DNA from: Sedimentibacter saalensis
GTDB taxonomy: Bacteria > Bacillota > Clostridia > Tissierellales > Sedimentibacteraceae
NCBI RefSeq assembly: GCF_007830175.1
Contig: NZ_VLKH01000001.1
Location: forward strand, 310,001 to 374,000
Reading direction: 5' to 3'
DNA: 64,000 bases
Shown piece after piece: positions 1 to 15,117 of the stretch (position 1 is the stretch's first letter; each line of letters starts with the position of its first letter). The notes beneath the pieces were generated by a model. It ran no database searches and had not been told where the DNA came from. It saw only the letters and a list, made by a program, of their open reading frames with translations. Position numbers and translations under genes: made by a program.

Positions 1-697
1 TAACCAGACCATCTTCTTTAAAGCACGTCTTGAGTTTTGCCAAATCTTCCATGTTAGTTCCCTTACGATAGCATTCATCTCTTTTGAAAACTGTAGGATT
101 ACCTTCTTTATCAAATCCGTTTACAGGAATAATCTCATTATCAAACAAACCATGTTCCACAGCTGTGGATGCCTTTGAATGGCTTTCAACAGACATTTGT
201 TCCATTCTTTCTCTTGTTATTCCATATTTTTTTGCAACATTTTCAGCAGTTATGCCCATAGGCATATACGTGTCGGTTTTATCCAAAAGCCATGGATTTA
301 AAAATTCAGGAGACTCTGACAAAACAGGACAGCTCATGGATTCCACACCGCCTGCAACAACTACATCCTGCAGTCCGCTCATAATCATAGAAGCACCTGT
401 GACTACTGATTGAATTCCTGATGCACAAAATCTGTTGACTGTTTGTCCCGGTACCTCAGCAGGAAGACCAGCCCTTATAACCAAATTTCTTCCGGGATTC
501 AGTCCCATTTTTCCTTCAGGGATTGCACAGCCCACAATAACATCATCAATGTCATCTGCTTTTAACTGAGGAACCCTTTCAATAACTCCCTTTAAAACTT
601 CAGCTCCAAAATCTATTGGATTAACGTTTGCCAAAGAACCGCGGCCTGCCTTTCCGATAGCCGAACGTCCATAAGCTACAATTACACAATTTTCCAT
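1..697 (-). CDS. Acetyl-CoA acetyltransferase (thiolase), N-terminal part
   Basis: The reverse strand is open from an ATG at 697, preceded by AAAGGAC, to the window edge, giving about 232 residues; the C-terminal part lies outside. It begins MENCVIVAYGRSAIGKAG. The nucleophile region NRFCASG puts the acyl-accepting cysteine at about residue 91, followed by AGGVESMS, both hallmarks of the thiolase family. Thiolases interconvert acetoacetyl-CoA and two acetyl-CoA, or the beta-ketoacyl equivalents. It shares a promoter architecture with the crotonase gene at 7500 and the dehydrogenase at 10754, so I infer it performs the final thiolytic step of the neighbouring catabolic module. A biosynthetic role is possible. 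The missing C-terminal Cys-Gly motif cannot be checked here. Confidence 0.93.
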   Translation of the reverse strand, partial: MENCVIVAYGRSAIGKAGRGSLANVNPIDFGAEVLKGVIERVPQLKADDIDDVIVGCAIPEGKMGLNPGRNLVIRAGLPAEVPGQTVNRFCASGIQSVVTGASMIMSGLQDVVVAGGVESMSCPVLSESPEFLNPWLLDKTDTYMPMGITAENVAKKYGITRERMEQMSVESHSKASTAVEHGLFDNEIIPVNGFDKEGNPTVFKRDECYRKGTNMEDLAKLKTCFKEDGLV

Positions 698-763
698 TTT
701 TTAGTCCTTTCTTGGTTGTATGAATAAAATATCTTAAAAATAAAATTTTCCTATTATGAATGT

Positions 764-793
764 ATTATAGAAATATATTTGTGGATTGTACAA
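764..793 (-). promoter_or_regulatory. Promoter of the thiolase gene
   Basis: On the reverse strand TTGTAC (788-793) and TATAAT (764-769) are 18 bases apart, about 70 bases before the thiolase start. The -35 lies in the palindrome ATTGTACAAT and is followed by AATCC. The same arrangement is found before the genes starting at 7500, 10754 and 2613. Confidence 0.75.
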
Positions 794-816
794 TTCAAAA
801 AATGCATTATAAAATT

Positions 817-829
817 AACAAACTTTGTT
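817..829. promoter_or_regulatory. Palindrome AACAAACTTTGTT, candidate operator
   Basis: A perfect 6-bp inverted repeat around a central C lies 24 bases upstream of the thiolase -35. A near-identical 11-base version lies 25 bases upstream of the crotonase -35 at 7572. The conserved spacing in two otherwise unrelated intergenic regions suggests a regulator site. Confidence 0.5.
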
Positions 830-849
830 ATTTATATTTTGACAAAGTA

Positions 850-1069
850 TGGTATAATGAAAAGTGGTGATGAGAAATATAAAGAAAAGTTAGCATTTAA
901 ACAACGCGCAATGCTTTCATTTGAACGTTTGAGAAGTTAACATATTTAAAAGCTGTTCTGCACCGAAAGAATGTCGTTATATTAAGCATGTTGCTTGAAT
1001 TATTGTATAATATTTATCATGTTGCAAATAAAGATGACTCATATTTAATAGAATCATCTTTATTTTTTT
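850..1069 (+). other. Possible short transcription unit in the thiolase/MFS gap
   Basis: An extended -10 (TGGTATAAT, 850-858) faces rightwards, and a hairpin with a T tail ends at about 1069. Between them an open frame of 27 codons (857-940) ends in LSFERLRS, but its ATG overlaps the -10, so it could not be translated from that promoter. I cannot tell a small RNA from a gene remnant. Nothing else is recognisable in this 380-base gap. Confidence 0.25.
1029..1069. terminator. Bidirectional terminator after the MFS gene
   Basis: AAAGATGA pairs with TCATCTTT, followed on the + strand by TATTTTTTT. On the - strand it lies just after the MFS stop at 1077, with a weaker T tail. Confidence 0.65.
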
Positions 1070-1076
1070 GGAATTA

Positions 1077-2354
1077 TTAATCTTCTACTTCCTTTGGACT
1101 ATCATTAAGCAGCAGCATAGCAATTATTGAAATAACTTCTATTCCCATAAATACCATGTAGGCACCTGTAAAAGATCCTGTAATGCTTATGGCTATAGCT
1201 AGTACTATAAATGCAAAGTTTCTGATAACTCCTTGAATTGTATTCATTACTGTGAATGCCAATGGAAAATCTTTTCTTCCAAATATAGTTGCAACCATTG
1301 ATGGAGGGAAATTGGCGTTTCCTCCTATAGCTCCGCCTATCATAATAAGTGAAATATATAAACAAAGAGTGTTATCAATTAAATTAAATCCAATACCTAT
1401 AATATACCAAACAGCAAAATACAATGATGCTTTCTTTGTTCCCCATTTTTGATCCACAACTCCCCAGCCATAACTTCCTGCAAGTCCTATTATAGCTGCT
1501 ATAGTCAGCATCATTATAGCTGTATTCAGTTCATAACCTCTCTCCATGAGTCTTGGAACCAGCTGTGACATAACCCCAACTGTAACCATACCGTTAATGC
1601 CATATGCTATTGCCATTAACCAGGTTTCCTTAGTTTTAAATACTTTGGCATAAGTAAGTTTTGGTATTTCCTGCGCAACTTTTTTTATTTTTATTTGATC
1701 GAGAGGCAAGTTATCAGGTGTGCATCCGGCTTCCTCTGGAGTTCCCTTCATAAATATCTTAGTAAAGATAGCTAATAATATCATAACAATACCGATAACT
1801 GTTACAGACATATTCATACCGCCAAATCTGACAGCAAGAGCATTTAACAAAATAACTATTGTTGCAGATGCCATATTCATGCCCATAGTTGCCCATCCGA
1901 ACGCTAATCCTTTTTTCCTTGGGAACCAGTTTGCCATGTACACATTTCCTGCAATGTTGCTGAATCCATTGACTAAAGAAACCATAAGCGTCAATGAAAT
2001 TCCATATGTAACTATGGTATTGGCGTGTCCGTACCAAATGGTCGCAAGGCCACCCAACACAAGGCATAATATAGCAGTGAACTGTGCTCCTTTTTTTGCA
2101 GCAAGCCATCCATAGAACATACAGGATATTAAGGCTATTATTCCTGCCGGAGTTGATAAAGCTAAAACCTGATTATAATCCATTCCATGCAGCTGACTTA
2201 ATCCAGGCACCAATACATTTAACCCGTCAACTGTCATTCCCGTCATGAAGTAATATAAAACACCTACATAAATTATTACACCCCAACCCTTTTTACCAAA
2301 ATTGTTGTTTACCTTTTCAGTTTCTATTCTTTCAATTGAATTATTAATTTCCAT
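1077..2354 (-). CDS. Major facilitator superfamily transporter
   Basis: This 425-residue protein has about twelve hydrophobic segments after a polar N-terminus. It resembles the oxalate/formate-antiporter-like branch of the MFS (inference from pattern and length). The start at MEINNS is preferred to an upstream ATG at 2369 because AAGGA sits six bases before it. It is transcribed divergently from the LysR gene at 2613, a common arrangement for a regulator and its target. Position inside the catabolic module suggests it brings in the substrate, perhaps an organic acid or phenolic derivative, or exports a product. The substrate cannot be read from the sequence. A terminator hairpin follows. Confidence 0.85.
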   Translation of the reverse strand: MEINNSIERIETEKVNNNFGKKGWGVIIYVGVLYYFMTGMTVDGLNVLVPGLSQLHGMDYNQVLALSTPAGIIALISCMFYGWLAAKKGAQFTAILCLVLGGLATIWYGHANTIVTYGISLTLMVSLVNGFSNIAGNVYMANWFPRKKGLAFGWATMGMNMASATIVILLNALAVRFGGMNMSVTVIGIVMILLAIFTKIFMKGTPEEAGCTPDNLPLDQIKIKKVAQEIPKLTYAKVFKTKETWLMAIAYGINGMVTVGVMSQLVPRLMERGYELNTAIMMLTIAAIIGLAGSYGWGVVDQKWGTKKASLYFAVWYIIGIGFNLIDNTLCLYISLIMIGGAIGGNANFPPSMVATIFGRKDFPLAFTVMNTIQGVIRNFAFIVLAIAISITGSFTGAYMVFMGIEVISIIAMLLLNDSPKEVED

Positions 2355-2548
2355 AATAAGTCCTTCCATTTTTATGTATTTTTAAGTATTTATTTAACAG
2401 CAAGACTACCATTTTAATAATGATATTTTTGAATATTTTGTACTAAATAATACACAATTACTTGATAATCAAAGCATTTAAAACGTATTCCCAATCATTA
2501 TAGCAGTTATTTTCATATCCTTCATCTCATTTATAGATTTAATTCATA

Positions 2549-2577
2549 TTGTTCAATCCTAAAAATTGTGATATAAT
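2549..2577 (+). promoter_or_regulatory. Promoter of the LysR gene
   Basis: TTGTTC (2549-2554), a 17-base spacer beginning AATCC, and TATAAT (2572-2577). The TTGTTCAATCC string is a variant of the box at the thiolase, crotonase and dehydrogenase promoters, suggesting that the regulator gene belongs to the same regulon. Confidence 0.65.
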
Positions 2578-2612
2578 TGTTAATATTTTATTTGTTGTGA
2601 GAGGATGATACC

Positions 2613-3530
2613 ATGAATCTTGAAACTCTTCAATACTTTCAATATATTGCCAAATATAAGAATATCACTAAAGCTGCAAAGCATTTTTTTGTAAGTCAAT
2701 CCACCCTGAGCCGTCAAATGATGGCCCTTGAAACTGAGCTTGGCGCACAACTTTTTATAAGAAATAATAAAAATATTGAACTGACAGAAGCAGGCAAAGT
2801 ATTGATGCGGGACTGTGATCTGTATATAAAACACATACAAACTATAAATGATAACGTTCACGCAGCTGCTCAAGGAAATTTAGGAATCCTTAGAATTACT
2901 TCACCAGGTGAGCTTTGCAAGACATTTTATGATTCATTAATATTATTTCAGAAGAAATTTCCAACAGCTGAATTAGTAGTTGAGGCTTATGACTTCAATG
3001 AAATTCCAACAGCCATTCAATATGGCGTGTACAACGTGGGATTTACTTTTGATTTTGCAACAACAACCTACGAAGAAGAAATTGAAAGCATCCCCATAGG
3101 AAATGATGATTTTTCTGTAGCTGTGTCATCGAAATTGTTCCCTAACCCAACTATTGATTCAATTCCTGAAATTGTAAAATCATTGCCCTTGATTCTTCCT
3201 TACTACACAGAACCGCCGTTTTTAAAGCGTATTATCCATGAACTTCAACATTATTCAGGAGCAAAGAAAATAAAAACAAATTATATCAATACAACAGACT
3301 CAGTTATGCTTAATGTTTCATTAGGATTAGGCTACAGCATCATTCCAACTTGCGTGTCCAAAGCCAAAAGCGGCATGGAGAACATTTCTTATATTAAGCT
3401 TGATGATAACTTTGCAAAAGGTATTATAGTTATGTTGTATAAAAAATCTCTGTCTTCAGAACTAGTTAACAGCTTTGTAGATATTGTGAAAGAACTTAGC
3501 AAAGATTTTATTTTAGGGTCTGAGGATTAA
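2613..3530 (+). CDS. LysR-family transcriptional regulator
   Basis: The 305-residue protein has the LysR N-terminal winged helix-turn-helix: ITKAAKHFFVSQSTLSRQM at about residues 18-36, then LGAQLFIRNNKNIELTEAG. A periplasmic-binding-protein-like effector domain fills the rest. Length is normal. GAGAGGATG precedes the ATG. It is divergent from the MFS carrier and convergent with the phosphate butyryltransferase-like gene, only 12 bases away. By the usual LysR pattern it controls the divergent gene and perhaps the module. Its own promoter carries the shared box, consistent with autoregulation, but the effector is unknown. Confidence 0.92.
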   Translation: MNLETLQYFQYIAKYKNITKAAKHFFVSQSTLSRQMMALETELGAQLFIRNNKNIELTEAGKVLMRDCDLYIKHIQTINDNVHAAAQGNLGILRITSPGELCKTFYDSLILFQKKFPTAELVVEAYDFNEIPTAIQYGVYNVGFTFDFATTTYEEEIESIPIGNDDFSVAVSSKLFPNPTIDSIPEIVKSLPLILPYYTEPPFLKRIIHELQHYSGAKKIKTNYINTTDSVMLNVSLGLGYSIIPTCVSKAKSGMENISYIKLDDNFAKGIIVMLYKKSLSSELVNSFVDIVKELSKDFILGSED

Positions 3531-3542
3531 ATTTCCTCAGCC

Positions 3543-4445
3543 CTAGCTAAGCATAGTGCATAAAAGTATGGAATACAGCTTTTCATTCATGCTTGCGCTT
3601 CTTGATGTTAGAACTATTGGAATATCAGCTCCCAATAGGCACCCGGCCATTATATTATCCCCATCAGCATTCCATATTTTACTCATAACATTTCCCGTAA
3701 CCATCTGAGGAACTAAAAGCATATCCACATCTCCTGCATAAGGTGAAGAATAGCCTTTTATAGCTGCAGATTCTTTGCTTGTGGCCAAATCAAAAGAAAT
3801 AGGACCTTCCACTACACAATTTCCTAATAATCCTTGAACAGACATTTCTTTCAGCTTTTGAGCTTCTATTGTTTCAGGCATTTTTTCACTGACTGTCTCT
3901 ACAGCACATAAGGCTCCTACAACCGGCTTAGTGTAACCTAACTTCATGAGGGCTTCCGTGCAATACATGATAATCTTTTTCTTGTCCTCTAACGTCGGAT
4001 ACGGTATTACAGCACAATCGCTCATTGCCAGCAGCTTATGGTAACTCTTTAGCTGCATTAGTCCAAAATGCGTAATGAATCCTCTTTTATTTAATCCTGT
4101 TTCTTTATTAAGTATTGGTCTTAATAAGTCTTTGGTCTCTATTTTCCCCTTTATTATGAAGTCGCCTTCACCCATGTGTATCAGCTTGACTGCAATCTCA
4201 GAAGGATTAGTATCCTTGCTGCAATTGACAATCTTATATTCTCTGTCTGCATAGTTCATTTCTTTAAGCTTGTTGATTATATCTTCCTCTGCACCAACAA
4301 GAACAGCCTTAATAAACCCTTTTTCCTGAGCGAGAAACACAGCCTCAAGTACATGCTCATCACAAGCTCCGGCAACAACAGCTCTTTTAACAGGACTGTT
4401 TGAGACTGCAAGCTTTTTCAACAACTCATCAAAACTTTTATACAT
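3543..4445 (-). CDS. Phosphate butyryltransferase-like protein
   Basis: This 300-residue member of the phosphate acetyl/butyryl transferase family carries the motifs VETVSEKMPETIEA and SSPYAGDVDMLLVPQMVTGN near the C-terminus. The family exchanges CoA for phosphate on short acyl-CoAs, giving acyl phosphate for a kinase. It is the last gene of a reverse-strand set crotonase, butyrate kinase, beta-keto acid cleavage enzyme and this gene, with only eight bases to the cleavage enzyme. Pairing with butyrate kinase suggests ATP formation from the acyl-CoA released upstream. Branched-chain or 3-hydroxyacyl substrates cannot be excluded. Confidence 0.88.
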   Translation of the reverse strand: MYKSFDELLKKLAVSNSPVKRAVVAGACDEHVLEAVFLAQEKGFIKAVLVGAEEDIINKLKEMNYADREYKIVNCSKDTNPSEIAVKLIHMGEGDFIIKGKIETKDLLRPILNKETGLNKRGFITHFGLMQLKSYHKLLAMSDCAVIPYPTLEDKKKIIMYCTEALMKLGYTKPVVGALCAVETVSEKMPETIEAQKLKEMSVQGLLGNCVVEGPISFDLATSKESAAIKGYSSPYAGDVDMLLVPQMVTGNVMSKIWNADGDNIMAGCLLGADIPIVLTSRSASMNEKLYSILLCTMLS

Positions 4446-4453
4446 AATATCAC

Positions 4454-5290
4454 CTATTTCTTTTTTATTCCCAGTATCTGCCTTGCTTCATCAGGTGTAG
4501 CCGGTTCTTTTCCAAATTCTTTTATAACTCTTACGGCTCTTTCTACAAATTCAACATTAGTTCCTAGTTTGCCTTTGCTGTAATAAACATTATCCTCAAG
4601 ACCAACCCTGATATGACCTCCCAGTGCCAACGCAGCATACATAATTGCCAAGTGCTGCTTGCCCAATCCAAAAGCAGACCATGTTGCATTTTTTGGAAGC
4701 ATATCGCATAAGAACTGCAGATTTTTAACTGATGCTTCCATACCTCCCCCAACTCCGAGCACAAACTGATAATGACATGGAGTTTCAAGGACTTCTTTCT
4801 TAACATAGTAGTTAACAATATTCATAAATCCTGAATCAAATATCTCAAGCTCAGGTTTTATTCCAAGCTCCTTCATTTTAAGTCCAAGAGGTTCAAGAAA
4901 CTGTGGTGCGTTATCGAAAATTCCAAATGGCATCCAGTTAAATGATCCTGCATCAAAAGAAGCCATTTCAGGCTTAACATATGGGAGGTGAGCCATTCTG
5001 TCCTCATAGTTTGCCCTGTTGTCACCGGAAGTTGTGCAGTTAATAACAACATCACAGTCTGTTCTTTGTTTTATCAAATCAACAGTCTTCTTAAATTTTT
5101 CCTTATCCATGGTGCCAATTCCTTTATCATCTCTCATATGTAGATGTACAACTGCAGCACCTGCCTTCCAACAATTGTATGCATCCTGTGCTATTTCCTC
5201 AGGAGTAAGCGGTATTGAAGGATTTAACTCCTTCGGTGTCATTGCTCCCGTCAAGGCAGCTGTTACTATAACTTTATTTTCTAATTCCAT
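4454..5290 (-). CDS. Beta-keto acid cleavage enzyme (BKACE family)
   Basis: This 278-residue zinc TIM-barrel protein transfers the acyl part of a beta-keto acid to acetyl-CoA, giving acetoacetate and a new acyl-CoA. Visible motifs are VVHLHMRDDKG with the two zinc-binding histidines near residues 45-47, INCTTSGDNR, KPEMASFDAGSFN, and GLEDNVYY with the third zinc ligand Glu. The start MELENK follows GGAGGTAATT, so the upstream ATG that overlaps the ribosome site is not used. The lysine-fermentation enzyme Kce, as I recall it, has TGAE near residue 14, where this has TGAM, hinting at a substrate without the amino group. No other lysine-fermentation gene is present. Triacetate or another 3-oxoacid is a candidate. 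Confidence 0.9.
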   Translation of the reverse strand: MELENKVIVTAALTGAMTPKELNPSIPLTPEEIAQDAYNCWKAGAAVVHLHMRDDKGIGTMDKEKFKKTVDLIKQRTDCDVVINCTTSGDNRANYEDRMAHLPYVKPEMASFDAGSFNWMPFGIFDNAPQFLEPLGLKMKELGIKPELEIFDSGFMNIVNYYVKKEVLETPCHYQFVLGVGGGMEASVKNLQFLCDMLPKNATWSAFGLGKQHLAIMYAALALGGHIRVGLEDNVYYSKGKLGTNVEFVERAVRVIKEFGKEPATPDEARQILGIKKK

Positions 5291-5332
5291 AATTACCTCC
5301 ATTGACTTAATGTTTCAAATTATTTTGCTTTT

Positions 5333-6457
5333 CTATGCCAGTTCATTTGGATTATTTATTATATCTTCAATTGAGCTGTATCCCTTAGGATAATAAATGT
5401 AAGGATGAACCTGTTCTTCGTTGTTAAGCACCCTTAGGCCCCCGGCAGCAAGTGCTTCCATTTCCCGTTCTCCCGGTATAACTGTTACAGGAGCTATGAA
5501 AGACACCTTTTCCTTAATCCATTCAGTTATTCTTTCACTGTATGCAACACCGCCTGTCAGGATTATCTGATCAACATTTCCGCCTCTTACTACGCACAGC
5601 TGTCCAATACTTTTTGCAACCCCATATGCCATTGCTTTTAGAATCAGTCCTGCTTTTTCATCGCCCTCATCTATCAGCTTTTCCACATCTCTCACATCCT
5701 GTGTGCCAAAATATGCAACAAGTCCTGATTGACCGCAAAGATACATTCTCATCTCTTGCAATGTTTTATTGCTTTTATAGCAATAATCCGCCAAATATCT
5801 TGTAGGAATTGCACCGGCTCTCTGAGGCGACATAGGTCCCTCATCATCATATACCCAATCAGCTATGCGCCCATGATCATGAAATCCAAGGGTTATACCC
5901 CCACCAAGCTGTACTATGATCAAATTAAGATCCTTGTAATCTTTTCCCATTGATTCTGCATACGTTATTCCTGCCATTTTAGTATTTAATAAATGAGCTA
6001 CAGGCATGTTAGTAATCTCAGGAATACCTGTTATTTTTGCTATTTCATCTGCTGAATCCACACAGGTTGGATCATAAATAATCACAGGAACATCAAGTCC
6101 TTTTACCAGCTTATCAGCTATTAAACAGGATAAGGTTGATGCATGCTGCGCCTCAGGTGCATAAGTAACAGATGCAATCATCAATTCATTTACTTCATAT
6201 GCACCATCATATGGAACTGAAGGAATAGTCCCTGCTCTTGAAACCACTATGTCGAAATCTTTTGGATCAAGATTGTTTTCCTTTAAGAAATCTTCTACCT
6301 GATTAGTTCGAAATTCAAGTTGATCCAGTGTTTTTGGCATTTCTTTCAGCTGCTCTGCTGTTATTGTAAGAGAAGACTTACACATCATCTTATCATCTTC
6401 AAAATAAGCTACCTTGGTTGAGGTAGAACCACAATTTATAGTAAAAATTTTTTTCAT
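5333..6457 (-). CDS. buk: Butyrate kinase
   Basis: This 374-residue member of the acetokinase/butyrate kinase fold starts with the phosphate-1 loop NCGSTSTKVAYFED and has VVQLGGGITLGFHDHGR, DDEGPMSPQRAG and the adenosine loop ILTGGVAYS. It makes ATP and an acid from butyryl phosphate or a related acyl phosphate. The body ends at about residue 346 (AAGGLRVL), where most family members stop shortly after. Here about 28 further residues rich in Tyr, Pro and Asn form a tail of unknown role. It sits 42 bases upstream of the cleavage enzyme and is read with it. CCAGGTGGTG precedes the ATG. Confidence 0.92.
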   Translation of the reverse strand: MKKIFTINCGSTSTKVAYFEDDKMMCKSSLTITAEQLKEMPKTLDQLEFRTNQVEDFLKENNLDPKDFDIVVSRAGTIPSVPYDGAYEVNELMIASVTYAPEAQHASTLSCLIADKLVKGLDVPVIIYDPTCVDSADEIAKITGIPEITNMPVAHLLNTKMAGITYAESMGKDYKDLNLIIVQLGGGITLGFHDHGRIADWVYDDEGPMSPQRAGAIPTRYLADYCYKSNKTLQEMRMYLCGQSGLVAYFGTQDVRDVEKLIDEGDEKAGLILKAMAYGVAKSIGQLCVVRGGNVDQIILTGGVAYSERITEWIKEKVSFIAPVTVIPGEREMEALAAGGLRVLNNEEQVHPYIYYPKGYSSIEDIINNPNELA

Positions 6458-6484
6458 AAAACACCACCTGGTTTATTTTTAAAT

Positions 6485-6600
6485 ATGGGGCTGTTGCAAT
6501 GATTATTATGTGTCATTCTGAGGGCATAGCCCGAAAGATCTCATCACTTCAAAAGATGAGATCCTTCGCTGCAGCTCAGGATGACACATGAACAGTCTAA
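6485..6600. repeat. Intergenic palindromic repeat, core B, copy 1
   Basis: The left end is ATGGGGCTGTTGCA and a decayed right end is GAACAGTCT. The inner imperfect palindrome runs from GTCATTCTGAGGGC through GATGAGATCCTTCGCT to AGGATGAC. It lies between the crotonase and butyrate kinase genes and may reduce read-through or form a stable RNA hairpin. Confidence 0.8.
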
Positions 6601-6609
6601 TTTTTATTA

Positions 6610-7500
6610 TTATCTTATTTTTCCTTGTAATGGTGGATCAATTTTACCTTCAAGGCCTAAATACTTAATCATAGACAAAAGCTCGGAGTGAAGCTCGTCC
6701 GCACAGAACATTCCAAACATTTCAGTTCCGAATGCCATATCCAGATCATCAGCAATTCTTTTCTTCCAAGGTCTTCTTACTAATTGAGAAGTAAGTCTTC
6801 TTGCTACTCTGTTCTGAGCCATTAGCATGTCAGCAATTTCATAAGCTCTGTCCATGAGTTTTTCTCTTGGAACAATTTCAGATACCAATCCCAGACGAAC
6901 AAGGTCTTGTGGATACATTTTATCGCCTGTCATCAAATACCATGCTGCAAATCTTGGAGGCATTAGCTCCATAAAGCAGCTGTGAATGCCATCTCCAGGC
7001 ACATTGTTTGTTCCGGGCAGCATATGTGGATCAAGTACAACGATATCATCTGCTGCAATAGCTAAATCACACATTAATGCCAGCTCAGTGTGTCCGCCGG
7101 AACCGCTCAATACTCCCAGTGTAGGAACTTCAACGTCCTGAATCATTGTTATAATCATTCGGCGTCCATCAACAAACATATGATTATATCTTGTCAGTCC
7201 AGGATCATCTCCTTCTGGAGCCCAGCTTGCAGCTTCAAAGTCTGTTACCCAAATATTTCCTGTACCTGTGAATATGATCATTTCTGTTTCACGATCTGTT
7301 CCAAGCATTCTCCACAATTTACCTATGGCATCATGTAACTCCATTGACCATATTAATGGACCGCCTTTGCAGTGCATGCGTACTGTTACAACTCCATCCT
7401 CTCTTCTTGTAATTATGAAATGCTCCTTGAACATTTCCTGAATTTCTTCAAAGCTAGGCCATTTCACATAGCTTGCATTAGTGATTCTTTCTTTTGACAT
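6610..7500 (-). CDS. Crotonase-superfamily hydrolase resembling 6-oxocamphor hydrolase
   Basis: This 296-residue crotonase-fold protein was chosen to start at MSKERIT because GGAGGATAAT precedes it and the promoter lies inside the longer frame. Instead of the usual enoyl-CoA hydratase glutamates it shows SGSGGHTELALMCD (His137), DPHMLPG (His159) and NVPGDGIH (Asp170), plus PLIWSMELHD (Trp51). As I recall it, 6-oxocamphor hydrolase has a matching Trp and His-His-Asp set, with NHPEIPVMSD, GPHFPSG and VPGDGAH, and cleaves a cyclic 1,3-diketone by a retro-Claisen reaction. I infer a C-C bond hydrolase for a beta-diketone, followed by butyrate kinase and the cleavage enzyme in one operon. Ordinary enoyl-CoA hydratase is the alternative. 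Confidence 0.75.
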   Translation of the reverse strand: MSKERITNASYVKWPSFEEIQEMFKEHFIITRREDGVVTVRMHCKGGPLIWSMELHDAIGKLWRMLGTDRETEMIIFTGTGNIWVTDFEAASWAPEGDDPGLTRYNHMFVDGRRMIITMIQDVEVPTLGVLSGSGGHTELALMCDLAIAADDIVVLDPHMLPGTNNVPGDGIHSCFMELMPPRFAAWYLMTGDKMYPQDLVRLGLVSEIVPREKLMDRAYEIADMLMAQNRVARRLTSQLVRRPWKKRIADDLDMAFGTEMFGMFCADELHSELLSMIKYLGLEGKIDPPLQGKIR

Positions 7501-7542
7501 ATTATCCTCCAAAATTTTAATAGACATTTGTCTGTATAACGC

Positions 7543-7572
7543 ATTATAAAAATTTATTCGCGGATTGTACAA
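7543..7572 (-). promoter_or_regulatory. Promoter of the crotonase-kinase-BKACE-ptb operon
   Basis: TTGTAC (7567-7572) and TATAAT (7543-7548) are spaced by 18 bases on the reverse strand, with AATCCGC just after the -35. The layout matches the thiolase promoter at 764-793, including the ATTGTACAAT palindrome. Confidence 0.78.
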
Positions 7573-7596
7573 TTCAAAATATGCATGATATATTTC

Positions 7597-7607
7597 ACAA
7601 ACTTTGT
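7597..7607. promoter_or_regulatory. Palindrome ACAAACTTTGT, second candidate operator
   Basis: An 11-base palindrome lies 25 bases upstream of the crotonase -35, between the divergent crotonase and htpG genes. It matches the site at 817-829. Confidence 0.5.
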
Positions 7608-7675
7608 TTTATGTATCTCCTTTTATTTGATATAATGATTAAAGTTCATTCAGAATTAAAAAAGCGAGGTATTAT

Positions 7676-9517
7676 ATGAAACAATCAGGAATGCTGTCAA
7701 TTGAAAGCAAAAACATATTTAACATACTAAAAAAATGGTTATACACAGAACAGGATATTGTTTTCAGAGAACTGATATCCAACGCATGTGATGCTGTAGA
7801 AAAATTATCAAATATTAAAAATATAAAAGGTGATTTATCCGAATATAAAGGCGTTATTTCTGTTACATTAGATGCAGACAAGCAATGCATCATAATCAGC
7901 GACAACGGTATAGGCATGACAAAAGAAGAAGTTCAAAAATACATAAATCAAATTGCTTTTTCAGGAGCAACTGACTTTATTAATAAAAATAATCAGGCCG
8001 GAAGCGAAACTATAATAGGTCATTTCGGTGTTGGTTTTTATTCTTCATTTATGATAAGCAATCATGTTGCCATAGAAACAAAATCTTATCTAGAGGATGC
8101 AAAGGCTGTCAGATGGGATTGCAATGTGGACATGTCATTTTCTATGAATGAAGGAAAAAAGCTACATACAGGTACAGATGTCATACTATATCTTGATGAC
8201 AACAACCCTTACTTAAAAAACCCAAAGCTTATCCTTGATATAATTAAAAAATACTTTGTTTTTTCAAAAACAGAAATATATTATGAAGCTCCTGATATAC
8301 AAAGACAGCTTGTAAACATACCAGAACCTGTTTTCAGGTTAAGCAGCAATCTAATTAACCCGGAAGAAATGAATTTATTTTACAAAGATTTTTTTGATGA
8401 CGTGTTTGATCCGTTATTCTGGTTTAAATTTGAAAGTATTGATTTAGGATTAAAAGGAATATTGTTTTTCAGGAACACAAAGAACAATACAGAAGAATTA
8501 GATGGAAAAATAAAGGTATACAGCAGAGGGGTCTATATAGGAGAAAACATAAGAGAGCTAATACCAAAATTCGTAAACCTTCAAAGCGGCATTATTGAAT
8601 GTGACAATCTACCTCTTGTAGTATCCCGCAGTACAATACGAGATGAGGATTCCAATGATAATGTAGTGTCGCTTATATATGAATGCCTTGCACAGGAAGT
8701 TACTATTTACATTAATGAAATGTTTGAAAAACACAGGGAAAAGTATGAAGCTTATTGGCCGAACATCAATGCCTTTGTGAAATACAGCATACTTCAGGAT
8801 AAAATATTTGCTTCTGTCATGGCCAGAAAAGCCATATTTATGGATTTAACAGGAAGATACTATACTATTAAAGAATATGTTGAAAAATTTGAAGGTTCAG
8901 AAGACAATGTAGTATATTATTCCTCAGATGCAGTTGAGCAGGCATACTATATAGGAATTTTCAAGCGTTGCGGCATGAATGCGCTGTTGTTTGATCATGT
9001 TATTGACCAGCCTTTTATGAGAAAATATGAGGTTCTAAATCCTTCCTTAAAATTCATAAGAATCGATTCAAACATTGAAGCCATATTCAAAGGAGAAATA
9101 AAGGAAGAGGACAAGCAAAATTCAGAGGTTGTTTCTGATAAAATCAAAAGTGCCCTTGGAGACAGGCTTGGAAATATAGAATTAAAAATAACAAATATTC
9201 AGCACGAAAGCATATCAATGCTGATCATCAATGATGAAAAAGCAAGAAGAATGGCTGACATGATGGAAATTTACGGACTAATTAATGCTAATAATTTTTC
9301 CGCCAAAGAGCTGCAGTCAAAAAGCACTTTGCTTATAAACCTGAACAATGAAATTGTCCGATTCATCCTTAACTCAAATAATGAAGAGCTTCAAAGCATT
9401 GTAATTAACCAGCTTTTTGACTTAGCCTTATTGAACCAGCAATCTTTAGAGCCTGAAGATGTTGAAAATTTCGTCAACAGAAGCGAAGAATTGCTTGTAC
9501 GAGCAATAAGAAAATAA
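7676..9517 (+). CDS. htpG: HtpG (Hsp90-family molecular chaperone)
   Basis: The 613-residue protein has the GHKL ATP-binding domain at the N-terminus: FRELISNACDAVEKL (Asn36), SDNGIGMT (Asp76) and GHFGVGFYSSFM as the lid glycine motif. The middle and C-terminal dimerisation domains follow, and total length is normal. Hsp90 proteins refold or stabilise client proteins in the cytoplasm. GCGAGGT precedes the ATG, and TATAAT at 7631-7636 is a likely -10. It is divergent from the crotonase operon and shares its intergenic region with the candidate operator, so coordinated regulation is possible though not shown. A strong terminator follows. Confidence 0.96.
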   Translation: MKQSGMLSIESKNIFNILKKWLYTEQDIVFRELISNACDAVEKLSNIKNIKGDLSEYKGVISVTLDADKQCIIISDNGIGMTKEEVQKYINQIAFSGATDFINKNNQAGSETIIGHFGVGFYSSFMISNHVAIETKSYLEDAKAVRWDCNVDMSFSMNEGKKLHTGTDVILYLDDNNPYLKNPKLILDIIKKYFVFSKTEIYYEAPDIQRQLVNIPEPVFRLSSNLINPEEMNLFYKDFFDDVFDPLFWFKFESIDLGLKGILFFRNTKNNTEELDGKIKVYSRGVYIGENIRELIPKFVNLQSGIIECDNLPLVVSRSTIRDEDSNDNVVSLIYECLAQEVTIYINEMFEKHREKYEAYWPNINAFVKYSILQDKIFASVMARKAIFMDLTGRYYTIKEYVEKFEGSEDNVVYYSSDAVEQAYYIGIFKRCGMNALLFDHVIDQPFMRKYEVLNPSLKFIRIDSNIEAIFKGEIKEEDKQNSEVVSDKIKSALGDRLGNIELKITNIQHESISMLIINDEKARRMADMMEIYGLINANNFSAKELQSKSTLLINLNNEIVRFILNSNNEELQSIVINQLFDLALLNQQSLEPEDVENFVNRSEELLVRAIRK

Positions 9518-9521
9518 AATA

Positions 9522-9554
9522 ATGCAGCCTGAATTTTGGGCTGCATTTTTGTTT
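9522..9554 (+). terminator. Rho-independent terminator after htpG
   Basis: ATGCAGCC pairs with GGGCTGCAT around a short loop, followed by TTTTTGTTTT. It lies between convergent genes and probably serves both. Confidence 0.85.
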
Positions 9555-10576
9555 TATGAAATTGTTTTGAGCCACTCCCTGACCATTTTTACTTTTTCCT
9601 TATGTTTTGTGGATTCAATAATTATAAGTAAATCTTTTATGTAATCAATGTAGTCCCCATTCTTATGAATAGAATAAACATTGATTAAATAATTTATTGA
9701 TTCGGTTATTTCTTCTGCCACGTCTTGAAGCATGTTCCTTGAGATTTTTTTTATTATCAGATTTAAATTGCCTGTGGTAATATTATAGACTGTTTCTTCA
9801 AATTTTTGTGATTCACAGCAATCCTGTATACCAGAATATATTCGCAGCATGTCCTTTGTCATGTCTCTTGTCCATGGCTTTTTCTCCGTTGTAAAGTATA
9901 GAGAAAGAAGCTTGGCAAGATAGATCCATTCTTCATAGGTTGTGCTGTGAATATCTGCATTTATATAATGATCAGTCTCCACAATATAGTGATATATAAT
10001 TCCTTTGTTTACTGCTGTTTTAAGCTCATTCTCGAAAAATTTCTCGCTCTTGACAGTATCTCTTTTGTAAATTGAGCGAGTGGAATTCTGCATGTACTCT
10101 TCAAATGTCAGCTCTTCAAATCCAACAGGGCAATCCTTTATGCTATGAACATCAACTATGTCTGGAATATCCCTATGTTGCTCATGGAATGGTTCTAAGG
10201 AATACTCCCCTTCCATATAGTTTAGAACCTCTTTTATTTCAGTTCTGTCGTAATATGTATAGCGCTGATTTCCCTTAAGCTTCACAAGAATCATTTTTAA
10301 CCCTAAAAGGTATTGTCCATAGTCTTTTTTCTCCAGGTCCCTGTAGGCCATCTCAAAAATACTGCTGTAGGACAATCCGGTTATATCCATTCTGAATACA
10401 AAATCATCAGCAGCAACATAATATTTCTGGTCAAATATTGGTTTTGAAAAATATTCATCTTGAATGTATTGAACAAGATTTATTAAATCTCTTGTAATCA
10501 TATAACTTCCTACAACGTGGAGTTTTGTCATATGTTCATTAATATTCTGTTTATTTGTCTTTGTATCATTGTCCAT
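9554..10576 (-). CDS. Uncharacterised 340-residue protein
   Basis: I do not recognise the family. The protein is soluble-looking, with no signal peptide or membrane segment, rich in Tyr, Lys and Glu, and probably mostly helical. The region FTTEKKPWTRDM near residues 235-246 and clusters of aromatic residues are visible, but there is no known catalytic motif. AAAAAGGAGC precedes the ATG at 10576. It is convergent with htpG and shares the terminator; upstream, the dehydrogenase gene is divergent. Its length and lack of decay suggest a real gene. Location next to htpG might mean a client or stress role, but that is speculation. Confidence 0.75.
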   Translation of the reverse strand: MDNDTKTNKQNINEHMTKLHVVGSYMITRDLINLVQYIQDEYFSKPIFDQKYYVAADDFVFRMDITGLSYSSIFEMAYRDLEKKDYGQYLLGLKMILVKLKGNQRYTYYDRTEIKEVLNYMEGEYSLEPFHEQHRDIPDIVDVHSIKDCPVGFEELTFEEYMQNSTRSIYKRDTVKSEKFFENELKTAVNKGIIYHYIVETDHYINADIHSTTYEEWIYLAKLLSLYFTTEKKPWTRDMTKDMLRIYSGIQDCCESQKFEETVYNITTGNLNLIIKKISRNMLQDVAEEITESINYLINVYSIHKNGDYIDYIKDLLIIIESTKHKEKVKMVREWLKTIS

Positions 10577-10670
10577 TTGAAGCTCCTTTTTGACAAGTAT
10601 ATAAGCATTATATCAGAGTTATTTCTGCTTTTCTATTATGTACTTGAAACTTATCCATACGAATTTAGCA

Positions 10671-10700
10671 TTATACAATCCGCTTTAATTTTGCTATAAT
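10671..10700 (+). promoter_or_regulatory. Promoter of the short-chain dehydrogenase gene
   Basis: TTATAC (10671-10676), an 18-base spacer beginning AATCCGC, and an extended -10 TGCTATAAT (TATAAT at 10695-10700). The TTATACAATCCGC string matches the crotonase promoter's TTGTACAATCCGC, but on the opposite strand, 3 kb away. Confidence 0.72.
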
Positions 10701-10753
10701 ACAAAAATCCAACAACATACAGTTCTTAATAATATAAAACAATGGAGGCAAAT

Positions 10754-11515
10754 ATGAAAAGGCTTGAAAATAAAATAGCCATAATTACCGGTGGAAATTC
10801 AGGAATAGGCCGTGCTACAGCAGAACTTTTTTGCAAAGAAGGTGCAAAAGTAGTTATAGCATCAAGAAGGCATGAAAAAAACGAAGAAACAGTGAATGAA
10901 ATTACAGCCCAAGGCGGAGAAATTATGGCTGTAGAAGCCGATGTTTCTAAAATGGAAGATTGCCGAAAAATCGTTAATGAAACAATCAGAAAATATGGAC
11001 AAGTAGACATTTTAGTAAATAATGCAGGTATTGCAGACAGACATATGCCTATAAATCTTTGCACTGAAGAATGGTATGAATATGTGTGCAGAGTTGACCA
11101 GTTTTCTGTTTACTACATGACAAAGTATGCTTTGGAGCATATGGAAAAGAAAGGCAAGGGCTCTATAGTTAACGTATCTTCCATTGGAAGCCAGGGTGTA
11201 GCCGGCATTTCATACAGTGCAGCTAAAGCAGCAGTAAACAGCATGACTAAAAACATAGCACTCCAATATTCTCCAACAGAAATTCGCTGCAACGCAGTTG
11301 CTCCGGGACCTACACCAACAGAGCTTAATGCACCGGAACAGTTCAAGCTTTTTAATCAGGAATTTGCAGCAGCCTGCGCAAAACACTTAGATGTTGAGCT
11401 TCCGGAGGCTCAGGCAAGCGATCAGGCTGAAGCAATTTTATTCTTTGCCAGCGATGCTTCAAGAGCAGTAACAGGACAAATATTGTACGTTGACCACGGT
11501 ACTTCATTATATTAA
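10754..11515 (+). CDS. Short-chain dehydrogenase/reductase (SDR)
   Basis: This 253-residue classical SDR has GGNSGIGRA for NAD(P) binding near residues 12-20, NNAGIADR, the catalytic Ser in VNVSSIGSQG, and YSAAK for the Tyr/Lys pair. The start MKRLENK follows GGAGGCAAAT. SDRs of this type interconvert alcohols and ketones. An acidic-looking turn after the second strand (ASRRHEKN) with two Arg residues favours NADP, but weakly. Its promoter carries the same box as the thiolase and crotonase genes, so I infer that it oxidises or reduces an intermediate of that pathway. Oxidising a 3-hydroxy acid to the 3-oxo acid needed by the cleavage enzyme would fit. A 3-oxoacyl reductase in fatty-acid synthesis is less likely here. 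Confidence 0.9.
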   Translation: MKRLENKIAIITGGNSGIGRATAELFCKEGAKVVIASRRHEKNEETVNEITAQGGEIMAVEADVSKMEDCRKIVNETIRKYGQVDILVNNAGIADRHMPINLCTEEWYEYVCRVDQFSVYYMTKYALEHMEKKGKGSIVNVSSIGSQGVAGISYSAAKAAVNSMTKNIALQYSPTEIRCNAVAPGPTPTELNAPEQFKLFNQEFAAACAKHLDVELPEAQASDQAEAILFFASDASRAVTGQILYVDHGTSLY

Positions 11516-11560
11516 TGAGTCACCGTTTGATAACAAAGTTAATTAAATTAATAATATCAG

Positions 11561-11680
11561 TAATTGTCAGTAAACTCGAAATCATAGTTCGTAGGGGAGG
11601 ACCTCGTGTCCTCCCGCAACCCCGGGCGGACACAAGATCCGCCCCTACGGTTTGTGGAATCGGGGTTTGTCAATTGTCTG
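11561..11680. repeat. Core A repeat, first of a tandem pair
   Basis: The unit runs from TAATTGTCAG to TTTGTCAATTGTCTG. Inside are two hairpins, GGGGAGGAC/GTCCTCCC and GGGCGGA/TCCGCCC, joined by CAACCC. The inner 60-odd bases from GTTCGTAGGGG to CCCCTACG are the same in the second copy. Confidence 0.85.
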
Positions 11681-11720
11681 AGACTCAACATATAAAAATT
11701 ATTTAAATGAATTAATATTG

Positions 11721-11841
11721 GAAATTGTCATCAAACTCGAAGTCACAGTTCGTAGGGGAGGACCTCGTGTCCTCCCGCAACCCCGGGCGGACACAAGATC
11801 CGCCCCTACGATTTGTAGAATCTGGGGTTGTCAATGGTCTG
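11721..11841. repeat. Core A repeat, second of the tandem pair
   Basis: A second, slightly diverged copy of the unit at 11561-11680 lies in the same orientation 160 bases further on. It ends eight bases before the stop of the betaine transporter ATPase gene. The two copies fill the gap between the SDR gene and the transporter; no terminator with a T tail is visible here. Confidence 0.85.
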
Positions 11842-11848
11842 TGGAAAA

Positions 11849-13039
11849 TTAGGTTTCTTCTCGCTCTGCTAGAGATGAAAGCACCGATGTCTTTGTCACA
11901 ATACCCTTTAAAACTCCTCCTCCGTTCAGAACTGCAATTGGATACTTTGCTTCTGCTGCCATGGGAAGTATCTCGCTTAGAAGAGTGTCTTCGCTTGTGG
12001 TCATGACATCTTTGTTTATTACGTCAAACAGCTTCAGGTTTTCCTTTCCTGCCCTTAATGCATCGTCTATTGACACTATTCCCTTGTACACCATCCTGCT
12101 GTCCACAGCATATGCAGTAGACACAGAATTTTGCTGCATTTCACGTATTGCATTCTTTGGCGAATCACTTTCCCTCACTAGACATGACGGTGTAATCATT
12201 ATGTTTTTAACGCTGAGCACCTTTGTTTTATCAGCACTGTCTATGAATTTCTTGACGTAGTCATCCACCGGATTCGTGGACATATTTTCCGGAGTGTCTA
12301 TCTGTACAATTTTGCCGTCCTTCATTATGGCAACCTTATCTCCCAGCTTAAATGCCTCATTGATGTCGTGGGTTATGAAAATAACTGTCTTTCCCAGCTT
12401 CCTTTGTATGGAAAGAAGTTCAAAGTGCATGTCTCTTCTCACAAGAGGATCAAGTGCAGAAAACGGCTCATCCATGAGAAGGACTTCCGGATTGCTTGCC
12501 AATGCTCTTGCAAGCCCCACTCTTTGCTTCATTCCTCCGGAAAGACTTTCTATGGATTTATGTTCCCACCCTTCAAGTCCTACCAGTCGTGTCATCTCAA
12601 GGGCTCTTTTCTGGCGTTCATCTTTAGCTGTACCCTTGACTTCCAAACCATATGCAACATTGTCCATGACGTTTCTGTGTGACATGAGTCCAAAATTCTG
12701 AAAGACCATGGAAATTTTGTTTCTTCTGTATTCCAGAAGCTCAGACTTGTTGAATGTTTCAATATTTCTTCCTTCATAAATTATTTCTCCGCTTGTAGGC
12801 TTCAAAAGCTGATTGAAACATCTTACCAATGTTGACTTTCCGGAACCCGACAGTCCGATTATGACGAAAATCTCACCTTTTTTAACTTCAAAGGAAACAT
12901 CCCACAGGGCAACGGTCACTCCTGTTTTCTTATACACGTCATCCTTGTTTGAGTTTTCCTTCATCATTCTTGAGGCTTCTTTCTTGTTTATGCCATAAAG
13001 CTTTGTAATGTTTTTAACTTCTATTATGTTGTCATTCAC
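11849..13039 (-). CDS. opuAA: Glycine betaine/proline ABC transporter, ATP-binding protein
   Basis: This 396-residue ATPase has Walker A GLSGSGKSTL, the Q-loop VFQNFGLM, the signature LSGGMKQRVGLARAL, Walker B VLLMDEPFSALDP and the H-loop ITHD. Two CBS domains follow at the C-terminus (about residues 275-390), the ionic-strength sensor typical of OpuA/ProV proteins. It energises import of glycine betaine or related osmolytes at the membrane. It is the last gene of a three-gene reverse-strand operon; its ATG overlaps the permease stop by four bases. The N-terminal KKEASRMM insert before the core is usual for this subfamily. In anaerobes imported betaine can also be a fermentation substrate. 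Confidence 0.94.
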   Translation of the reverse strand: MNDNIIEVKNITKLYGINKKEASRMMKENSNKDDVYKKTGVTVALWDVSFEVKKGEIFVIIGLSGSGKSTLVRCFNQLLKPTSGEIIYEGRNIETFNKSELLEYRRNKISMVFQNFGLMSHRNVMDNVAYGLEVKGTAKDERQKRALEMTRLVGLEGWEHKSIESLSGGMKQRVGLARALASNPEVLLMDEPFSALDPLVRRDMHFELLSIQRKLGKTVIFITHDINEAFKLGDKVAIMKDGKIVQIDTPENMSTNPVDDYVKKFIDSADKTKVLSVKNIMITPSCLVRESDSPKNAIREMQQNSVSTAYAVDSRMVYKGIVSIDDALRAGKENLKLFDVINKDVMTTSEDTLLSEILPMAAEAKYPIAVLNGGGVLKGIVTKTSVLSSLAEREET

Positions 13040-13902
13040 TGTTCAGCCACCTCTTTCTTTTTGATTAAGCCCTGTGTGAGGCGGTCGAAAATAATGGCTA
13101 TAATTACTATTGAAATTCCAGGCAGCAGTGCTTTGCCCATTTCTACACGGTTTGTGGCAATGAGTATTTCAAGTCCCAATCCTTCTGCACCAATCAATGC
13201 GCAGGTAACAACCATTGACATAGCCATCATTATTGTCTGGTTTACTCCTGTCATTATTGTGGGCATGGCTTGAGGTATCTGAACTTTCACAAGCGCCTGC
13301 ATCTTTGTAGATCCAAATGCAATGGCAGCTTCCTTGACCTCCTTGTCAACATGCATGATGCCGTGGCTTGTCATTCTGACCATGGGCACTATGGAATATA
13401 TAACTGTTGCCAGAAGAGCAGGCATGATTCCTATGCTGAAAAGCATTACTGCAGGAACCAGGTATACAAATGACGGCATGGTCTGCATCAAATCCAGTAT
13501 GGGCCGTATTATGTTTTCAGCACGCTTGCTCATGGCTACAAGTATTCCCAATGGAAATCCAAGTATCAGTGATATGGCCACAGCAGCTATTACCACACTG
13601 ACAGTATCTATCATGTGTGACCATAAACCGCTTGCCCCTATAAAAAACATCATGGCTCCGTACAACAATCCCACATAAATTTTCCTGCTGACTCTGTAGC
13701 CAAAATATATGACAACTATAATAAGCACGAACCATGGTATTGAGGAAAGTACCCAGTTGATACCCTGTATGCTCCTTATAGCAACGGACCGTATAGCCCC
13801 AAGAATACCCTCATTATTTTTACTGAACTGCTTAACGGCATCGTCTATAGCAGATCCAATATTAAACTGCAGTGACTGAGGAAACGAATATATGCTGTTC
13901 AT
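13036..13902 (-). CDS. opuAB: Glycine betaine/proline ABC transporter, permease
   Basis: The 288-residue integral membrane protein has about six or seven hydrophobic segments and the permease contact loop AAIAFGSTKMQALVKVQIPQ with the EAA-type motif. It forms the membrane channel for the ATPase at 11849. The frame opens at 13929, overlapping the binding-protein stop, but AAAGGA precedes the ATG at 13902, so MNSIYSF is the more likely start. The upstream ATG remains possible through translational coupling. Length and motif order match OpuAB/ProW. Confidence 0.92.
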   Translation of the reverse strand: MNSIYSFPQSLQFNIGSAIDDAVKQFSKNNEGILGAIRSVAIRSIQGINWVLSSIPWFVLIIVVIYFGYRVSRKIYVGLLYGAMMFFIGASGLWSHMIDTVSVVIAAVAISLILGFPLGILVAMSKRAENIIRPILDLMQTMPSFVYLVPAVMLFSIGIMPALLATVIYSIVPMVRMTSHGIMHVDKEVKEAAIAFGSTKMQALVKVQIPQAMPTIMTGVNQTIMMAMSMVVTCALIGAEGLGLEILIATNRVEMGKALLPGISIVIIAIIFDRLTQGLIKKKEVAEQ

Positions 13903-13925
13903 ATGTGTCATTCCTTTCAGGTTTA

Positions 13926-14933: not shown

Positions 14934-15117
14934 AAAATCCCTCCATTCAATTTTTTTATATAGAAACCAAATGTAAATAGAAATAGATGGCTTGTTACGA
15001 AGCATTATTCTCTACGTTTGTAAATGTTAGGCAGCAAAACTTTATAAGATACTTCGCTTGCAGATGACGTAAACAGGTTTTGTCAATAGTCTAATGGGTA
15101 ACAAAATAAAAGTTTTT

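Follow-up and report, generated by a model that had tools for sequence, protein, structure and literature searches.

Which compound does an anaerobic fermenter break down with a crotonase-fold hydrolase encoded beside a BKACE cleavage enzyme, a phosphate butyryltransferase-like protein (Ptb) and a butyrate kinase (Buk)? This question is raised by positions 1 to 11,515 of a 64,000-nt stretch of Sedimentibacter saalensis DNA (the window, G000:C1:310001-374000; host genome 3.83 Mb). A first-pass annotation had read these genes, together with those for an SDR dehydrogenase, a thiolase and an MFS carrier, as a pathway for a cyclic 1,3-diketone of the phloroglucinol type. We put the probability at about 60% that the region is part of a two-operon regulon for the anaerobic, fermentative breakdown of a ring compound by way of a cyclic 1,3-diketone. 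The active site of the hydrolase, its recurring neighbourhood and a shared promoter box uphold the ring-opening logic of the annotation, whereas plain phloroglucinol as the substrate is poorly supported. The genes named in the annotation were all found in place by open reading frame and family checks, and the features of the region are as follows.

-460 to 697 (the window holds 1 to 697, the 5' part), minus strand: thiolase, 385 aa, running past position 1.
1077-2369, minus strand: MFS transporter, by family match.
2613-3530, plus strand: LysR-type regulator, by family match; not in the first-pass annotation.
3543-4445, minus strand: Ptb-like phosphate butyryltransferase, by family match.
4454-5302, minus strand: BKACE, by family match; Met at the position of Kce Glu14 and CsTAL Trp16.
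5333-6457, minus strand: Buk butyrate kinase, by family match.
6610-7500, minus strand: crotonase-fold hydrolase, predicted from its PDB neighbours and catalytic residues to be a CoA-independent, ring-opening beta-diketone (retro-Claisen) hydrolase.
7676-9517, plus strand: divergent Hsp90 (HtpG-like) paralogue, by family match; newly added here.
9554-10576, minus strand: 340-aa protein; also newly added.
10742-11515, plus strand: SDR dehydrogenase, by family match, predicted to oxidize a hydroxy acid after ring opening.
783-808, minus strand: 26-bp operator-like box with downstream TATAAT, ~86 bp ahead of the thiolase start; score 28.7.
7562-7587, minus strand: 26-bp operator-like box with downstream TATAAT, ~62 bp ahead of the crotonase start, between crotonase and Hsp90; score 34.4.
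10656-10681, plus strand: related box with downstream TATAAT, ahead of the SDR gene; score 29.6 or 12.3, depending on the training set.

Crotonase, Buk, BKACE and Ptb form a single minus-strand unit with gaps of 152, 30 and 8 bp, in which we preferred for crotonase the ATG behind GGAGG over a TTG at 7572 as start codon. The LysR gene lies opposite this unit, and the MFS and then the thiolase gene come next. Past position 1, the thiolase opens a series that continues with an OFA-type MFS protein, proteins of 694, 214 and 505 aa, another MFS protein and a 638-aa protein, with intergenic gaps of -4 to 200 bp.

The best PDB matches of the crotonase-fold protein are 2j5g and 1o8u (3.5e-28 and 5.4e-27), beta-diketone hydrolases of a type whose characterised members we take to act on cyclic diketones; the next family, represented by the enoyl-CoA hydratase 2pbp, follows at 1.3e-12. 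In a multiple alignment, His43, His144, Asp153 and Glu243, given as the catalytic residues of ABDH in the available part of PMC3584854, correspond to H55, H158, D169 and E259 of the window protein (chain index offset 10; ABDH is the Anabaena beta-diketone hydrolase); a pairwise alignment with ABDH shifts the catalytic Glu by two, and the multiple alignment matches it to E259. His122 of OCH (6-oxocamphor hydrolase) aligns with H136. None of these five residues varies among the 13 aligned sequences, which come from 10 genomes (that of the window among them); a partial copy in L050 was left out of the alignment. In rat enoyl-CoA hydratase, E144 and E164 are the catalytic glutamate pair. The window protein retains a Glu near the E144 position (E138, by eye) and has H158 at that of Glu164, so the hydratase pair is broken; the available text of PMC3584854 likewise aligns hydratase Glu164 with the His144 position of ABDH. 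As judged from its residues, the protein is predicted to be a CoA-independent beta-diketone hydrolase of the OCH/ABDH type. It shares with OCH and ABDH (1o8u and 2j5g) its superfamily and the aligned catalytic residues, and differs from them in its setting, an anaerobic fermentation cluster. The likeness to 6-oxocamphor hydrolase seen in the first-pass annotation is thus borne out by the nearest structures and the invariant residues, and action on enoyl-CoAs alone, which had been named there as a refuting result, is made unlikely by the active site.

The partner enzymes are assigned at family level with different degrees of fit. BKACE scores 335 bits against PF05853 (cut-off 24.8); its best NCBIfam model is lysine Kce (NF052387), at 310 bits and below the curated cut-off of 382, and Met replaces Glu14 of Kce. 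As this Glu binds the amine, restriction of the enzyme to a lysine intermediate, another refuting result named beforehand, is also made unlikely. The NCBIfam model for dioxohexanoate BKACEs gave no match in a class-wide scan in which the controls were silent as well. Buk scores 402 bits (cut-off 222), and the Ptb-like protein, with 254 bits, falls short of the 399-bit cut-off of the butyryltransferase subfamily model.

A scan of 84,980 species genomes, sensitive to close relatives only, recovered 10 crotonase loci at 80-96% identity, in Sedimentibacter, Anoxynatronum, Sinanaerobacter, a Herbinix metagenome-assembled genome (MAG), a Lachnospiraceae MAG (GC 62%) and further MAGs. The named strains with the cluster are Sedimentibacter acidaminivorans DSM 24004, Sinanaerobacter chloroacetimidivorans BAD-6 and Anoxynatronum buryatiense Su22. 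A class-wide scan gave, besides the window gene, only matches of 21-30% (22 of 391 genomes, the own genome included). Searched by tblastn in the 10 relatives, where several misses fall on the short contigs of G451 and G454, the Hsp90 paralogue was present in 10 (46-79% identity), BKACE in nine (57-92%), the Fe-S flavoprotein of the thiolase series in nine (one match partial), the FAD reductase of that series in eight (71-90%), SDR in eight (59-90%), Buk in eight (at least 77%), Ptb in seven (at least 65%), the OYE-like protein in four (at least 60%) and the MFS protein of 1077-2369 in three (at least 41%). BKACE lies on the crotonase contig in G449 and G450, and on another contig with other cluster genes in the MAG G454. 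The SDR gene stands directly 3' of a crotonase copy, on the same strand, in three loci (L045, L046 and L050). Three genomes have two crotonase genes, and three relatives carry a CoA transferase gene inside or beside the cluster (L092, L090 and L100). The set recurs, whole or in part, around the crotonase in 10 other genomes, an association beyond chance. Together with the promoter box, this recurring neighbourhood bears out the earlier grouping of SDR, BKACE, thiolase and Ptb/Buk as partners of the crotonase. In the Lachnospiraceae MAG, an HpaB-family gene, perhaps 4-hydroxybutyryl-CoA-dehydratase-like, was also seen directly 3' of tandem crotonases (L044:12429-14042).

Two copies of the 13-mer GAATTGTACAATC lie in the 64 kb, one ahead of the thiolase and one ahead of the crotonase; with one mismatch allowed, three matches are found where 0.24 are expected. 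A 26-bp matrix was built from six crotonase promoters of other genomes and scored against a null of 40 Markov sequences. The crotonase and thiolase sites (34.4 and 28.7) are its top two in 79 kb, and the highest null score is 17.8. The crotonase match is expected by orthology; the thiolase match is the independent one. The sites that had not been used for training are one of 36.7 at the second Sinanaerobacter crotonase, one of 35.5 next to Hsp90 in S. acidaminivorans (L037), three in the Lachnospiraceae locus L044 (29.8, 28.2 and 19.3), one of 26.9 by an MFS gene in L097 and one of 21.6 ahead of the first crotonase of L046. In L047, L087, L090, L092, L093, L099, L100 and L101, no site scored as high as 14, the listing threshold. 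In S. acidaminivorans, a LysR gene and an MFS gene separate Hsp90 and crotonase, and the box still adjoins Hsp90, where it may be a relic. The shared box suggests that the crotonase and thiolase/redox operons are regulated together, which bears on the co-induction required by the first-pass annotation, and the LysR-type protein is the likely regulator of the box.

The first-pass annotation had seen no ring reductase, which holds inside the window, and a candidate module begins ~1.7 kb past position 1 on the thiolase strand. Its 694-aa protein joins a NuoG-like 2Fe-2S/4Fe-4S part to a GltD-like flavoprotein part, the 214-aa Fe-S protein resembles the C-terminus of NuoF, the 505-aa protein is an FAD reductase and the 638-aa protein an OYE/BaiCD-like reductase. 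Scanned through the 391 class genomes (E at most 1e-80), the FAD reductase was found in the own genome and six others, with 10 further matches, of which nine contexts were read. The Fe-S flavoprotein and the NuoF-like gene are adjacent in six of the nine. In four of the nine, the FAD reductase has polyphenol genes at most a few genes away: a run of DPGC (the published phloroglucinol 'cyclase', see below), TAL, thiolase and CoA transferase with a DAPG-hydrolase-family gene in L125, DAPG-hydrolase-family genes in L126 and L127, and a C-glycoside deglycosidase subunit in L121; none were seen in the remaining five. DPGC was present in three of the six non-own genomes with the FAD reductase versus five of the 384 others, both scans having used the same 391-genome draw, as their handles indicate. 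This context points to reduction of a phenolic compound. One MAG has a URO-D/MtaA-like methyltransferase gene between crotonase and Buk (L048:11058-12020), and a URO-D family gene lies near the FAD reductase in L123 too; these perhaps serve O-demethylation.

The Hsp90 protein scores 426 bits against the HtpG model NF003555 (cut-off 371) and 99 bits, likewise above the cut-off, against PF00183, for which a canonical HtpG at G000:C15 scores 354; because that HtpG is present, the window protein is a paralogue. It retains FRELISNA, DNGIGM and GHFGVGFYS, which we take to be the Hsp90 ATP-site motifs. It adjoins a crotonase copy divergently in nine of 11 loci, 83-340 bp apart. Among 25 same-genus genomes, some of them incomplete (62-99%), crotonase and an Hsp90 of at least 79% identity co-occur in the same three (G000, G405 and G414). 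Three genomes of the order, in which no crotonase was found, have more distant Hsp90 relatives (37-40%).

From these gene families we infer the following reactions, their order and the kind of substrate. The MFS carriers would take up the substrate. The 694-aa Fe-S flavoprotein and its 214-aa Fe-S partner would relay electrons from NAD(P)H or ferredoxin to the 505-aa protein, and this FAD reductase would reduce the conjugated C=C in the keto tautomer of the ring. The 1,3-diketone formed in this way would be opened by the crotonase-fold hydrolase in a CoA-independent retro-Claisen hydrolysis, and the SDR would oxidize the hydroxyl of the free oxo-acid so released to give a beta-keto acid. BKACE would then convert this acid and acetyl-CoA to acetoacetate and an acyl-CoA, the thiolase (and in some relatives the CoA transferase) would recycle acetoacetate, and Ptb/Buk would make ATP. 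The Hsp90 paralogue may fold or assemble one pathway protein. BKACE constrains the substrate. Hydrolysis of a cyclic 1,3-dione would give a 5-oxo acid, and this would suit BKACE only if the ring carried oxygen at C5, as phloroglucinol and its substituted forms do, or after an additional oxidation. Substituted phloroglucinols are the best match to BKACE, since only a 1,3,5-oxygenated ring would yield a free beta-keto acid directly, whereas a resorcinol-type ring would suit the Fe-S-fed reductase at the cost of an extra oxidation step. The substrate is therefore to be sought between substituted phloroglucinols and resorcinol-type rings.

Several observations weigh against this reading. Only 62 of 233 aligned residues of the crotonase (~27%) are identical to OCH; its AlphaFold model, from too shallow an alignment, has a mean pLDDT of 40.4. 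Hydrolysis of cyclohexane-1,3-dione would give 5-oxohexanoate, which BKACE could not use directly. The best NCBIfam match of the FAD reductase is vinyl phenol reductase, at 316 of 600 bits and below the cut-off, and its genomic association could stem from reduction of flavonoid side chains or enones rather than of a ring. With the crotonase-only matrix the SDR promoter stays inside the null range (12.3). Once the SDR promoters of relatives join the training it reaches 29.6 against a null maximum of 14.8 (n=20), a value that is partly circular, although the core and the TATAAT spacing are shared. The box is no proof that Hsp90 belongs to the regulon, because the TATAAT of the box beside it faces away from Hsp90 both in the window and in S. 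acidaminivorans. Finally, no SDR gene was found in the 38 kb examined of Anoxynatronum, the Herbinix MAG being not assessable, and in the Lachnospiraceae MAG the SDR match (59%) lies ~20 kb from the crotonase and the nearby Buk is just 37% identical.

A narrower version of the proposal is that the regulon is the reductive resorcinol-type route of fermenters, with an NAD(P)H/Fe-S-fed FAD ring reductase, a crotonase-fold cyclohydrolase through which primary catabolism would have recruited the 6-oxocamphor hydrolase type, and a dedicated Hsp90 paralogue as obligate maturation factor for one of these enzymes; taken jointly, these features make a tentative and rather unlikely reading. In fermentative resorcinol breakdown a ferredoxin-dependent reductase acts first and the ring is then cleaved hydrolytically (Kluge et al. 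1990, as cited in the available part of PMC10470551). Such a route would call for a ferredoxin-linked reductase together with a hydrolase for 1,3-diketones, and both are predicted here; BKACE, by contrast, has no direct role in it. No gene assignment for it was found in the mostly non-subscription literature that was searched.

Could the cluster instead be an alternative route for phloroglucinol itself, in which the crotonase opens dihydrophloroglucinol, the SDR makes triacetate and BKACE cleaves it? According to the available text of PMC10470551, Clostridium scatologenes reduces phloroglucinol with PGR and opens the ring with the Mn-dependent 'cyclase' DPGC; its TfD is a 3HCDH-type dehydrogenase and its TAL a BKACE with Trp16. 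As far as that text goes, the two systems would have in common reduction, retro-Claisen opening, hydroxy-acid oxidation, BKACE, thiolase, butyrate kinase, MFS transport and a regulator, and the logic and accessory genes thus speak for the phloroglucinol alternative; energy conservation by butyrate kinase, proposed in the first-pass annotation, also parallels the published cluster. Thiolase and butyrate kinase are indeed present in the window cluster. Compared with the same source, however, the window set has a crotonase-fold opener in place of the 'cyclase', an SDR in place of the 3HCDH-type dehydrogenase, an Fe-S-fed FAD reductase as candidate ring reductase and Met in place of Trp in BKACE, and it adds the linked Hsp90 paralogue and the shared 26-bp box. 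No 3HCDH-type dehydrogenase was found in the window cluster, a 3HCDH-family gene lying elsewhere in the genome (L007). The cluster BKACEs have Met (seven of 10) or Val (three of 10) at the aligned Kce Glu14/CsTAL Trp16 position and Trp in none of the 10, whereas DPGC-linked BKACEs carry Trp there; as Trp also occurs in BKACEs outside DPGC clusters (L007 and L008), it is not by itself a mark of TAL.

The distribution of the published genes bears on the same alternative. PF04199, the 'cyclase' family, matches the cyclases of published-type clusters (defined here by families and gene content, without direct comparison with the C. scatologenes sequences) and had no match in the own genome, with eight of 14 control genomes positive. 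No close DPGC homologue was found in the own genome or in five of the 10 relatives, and there the crotonase could replace DPGC; in G446 the match is a 32-residue end piece (81%) at contig ends. Four of the 10 relatives (G447, G449, G450 and G451), however, hold a published-type cluster on a non-crotonase contig. SDR, 3HCDH, cyclase and Trp-type BKACE genes are neighbours in L094 (Sinanaerobacter), L095 and L096 (MAGs) and L133 (Anoxynatronum). In these carriers the crotonase set would be redundant unless it had another function, which suggests that its substrate is a different one. With a DPGC homologue of at least 71% in eight of the 391 class-sample genomes, crotonase carriers look enriched in phloroglucinol degraders, in samples that differ and with kinship uncorrected. 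The window SDR was considered as phloroglucinol reductase and rejected, because its identity to the PGR-like L094 SDR is only 29%. The L094 protein matches 5g4k/5g4l, listed as an SDR oxidoreductase, at 351 bits, and we take these entries to be phloroglucinol reductase; if the L094 protein is a guide, the published reductase is an SDR of another branch. With cyclohydrolase, dehydrogenase and reductase all different and no PF04199 match, identity of the window genes with the published phloroglucinol route, with which the first-pass annotation had compared them, is not supported, nor is the published cyclohydrolase a crotonase relative, being in the available text of PMC10470551 an unrelated Mn-dependent 'cyclase'. 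Phloroglucinol itself is an improbable substrate of the crotonase set.

Of low probability, too, is cleavage by the crotonase of a linear beta-diketone, or of a flavonoid- or curcuminoid-type side chain after ene-reduction, with the ring left closed. Proteins of the OYE and VprA types are able to reduce phenylpropanoids at conjugated double bonds, and such family matches in the module, along with the flavonoid genes near relatives of its FAD/Fe-S proteins, would fit this chemistry; but the nearest characterised crotonase relatives presumably act on cyclic diketones, and BKACE and Ptb/Buk would need a free beta-keto acid and a short acyl-CoA, neither of which a diarylheptanoid would give directly. 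Very improbable, finally, is an ordinary CoA-dependent amino-acid or hydroxy-acid fermentation with the crotonase as enoyl-CoA hydratase and BKACE acting as in lysine fermentation: Sedimentibacter species include amino-acid fermenters and lysine Kce is the best NCBIfam model for BKACE, but that score stays below its cut-off, Met stands where Glu14 would hold the amino group, His occupies the hydratase Glu164 position, the top structural relatives of the crotonase are beta-diketone hydrolases, and no other lysine-fermentation gene was found among the cluster genes whose families were looked up.

Other BKACE settings and neighbouring genes may be mentioned briefly. The oxidative deoxyribonate pathway (PMC6365646) shares an SDR-made beta-keto acid for BKACE, a thiolase and MFS carriers with the window set and, unlike it, names no crotonase and no Ptb/Buk in the part of the article available. 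In the same genome, L007 (G000:C6:116000-134000) has at 9123-12374 a Trp-type BKACE beside a 3HCDH-family dehydrogenase and, by eye, a transporter similar to carriers of short-chain fatty acids, which together make up a separate unit for beta-hydroxy-acid cleavage; L008 (G000:C21) has at 766-4707 a further BKACE gene, accompanied by genes for a dehydrogenase resembling ketopantoate reductase and for a MaoC-like protein (by eye). The 340-aa protein of 9554-10576 had no Pfam or NCBIfam match and has relatives near the crotonase in L048 (40%) and L049/L037 (65%), with a partial one in L038 (37%, 124 aa). Between Buk and crotonase (6458-6609), an imperfect inverted repeat with the ends GTGTCATCCTGAG...GAATGACAC, noted by eye, resembles a small mobile or terminator-like palindrome. 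Genes at 11849-15005 look by eye like the ATPase, permease and binding protein of a glycine-betaine/proline ABC transporter and are apparently unrelated.

In summary, three points are new: the region extends into an operon of redox genes, two operons share a promoter box, and an Hsp90 paralogue is linked to the crotonase. If the proposed regulon is real, it would supply genes for a class of anaerobic phenolic degradation that has no named genes in the literature found, and a second, non-homologous solution for reductive polyphenol ring opening. It would also be an example of an Hsp90 paralogue tied to a single catabolic cluster. The named strains that carry the cluster make growth and induction experiments possible.

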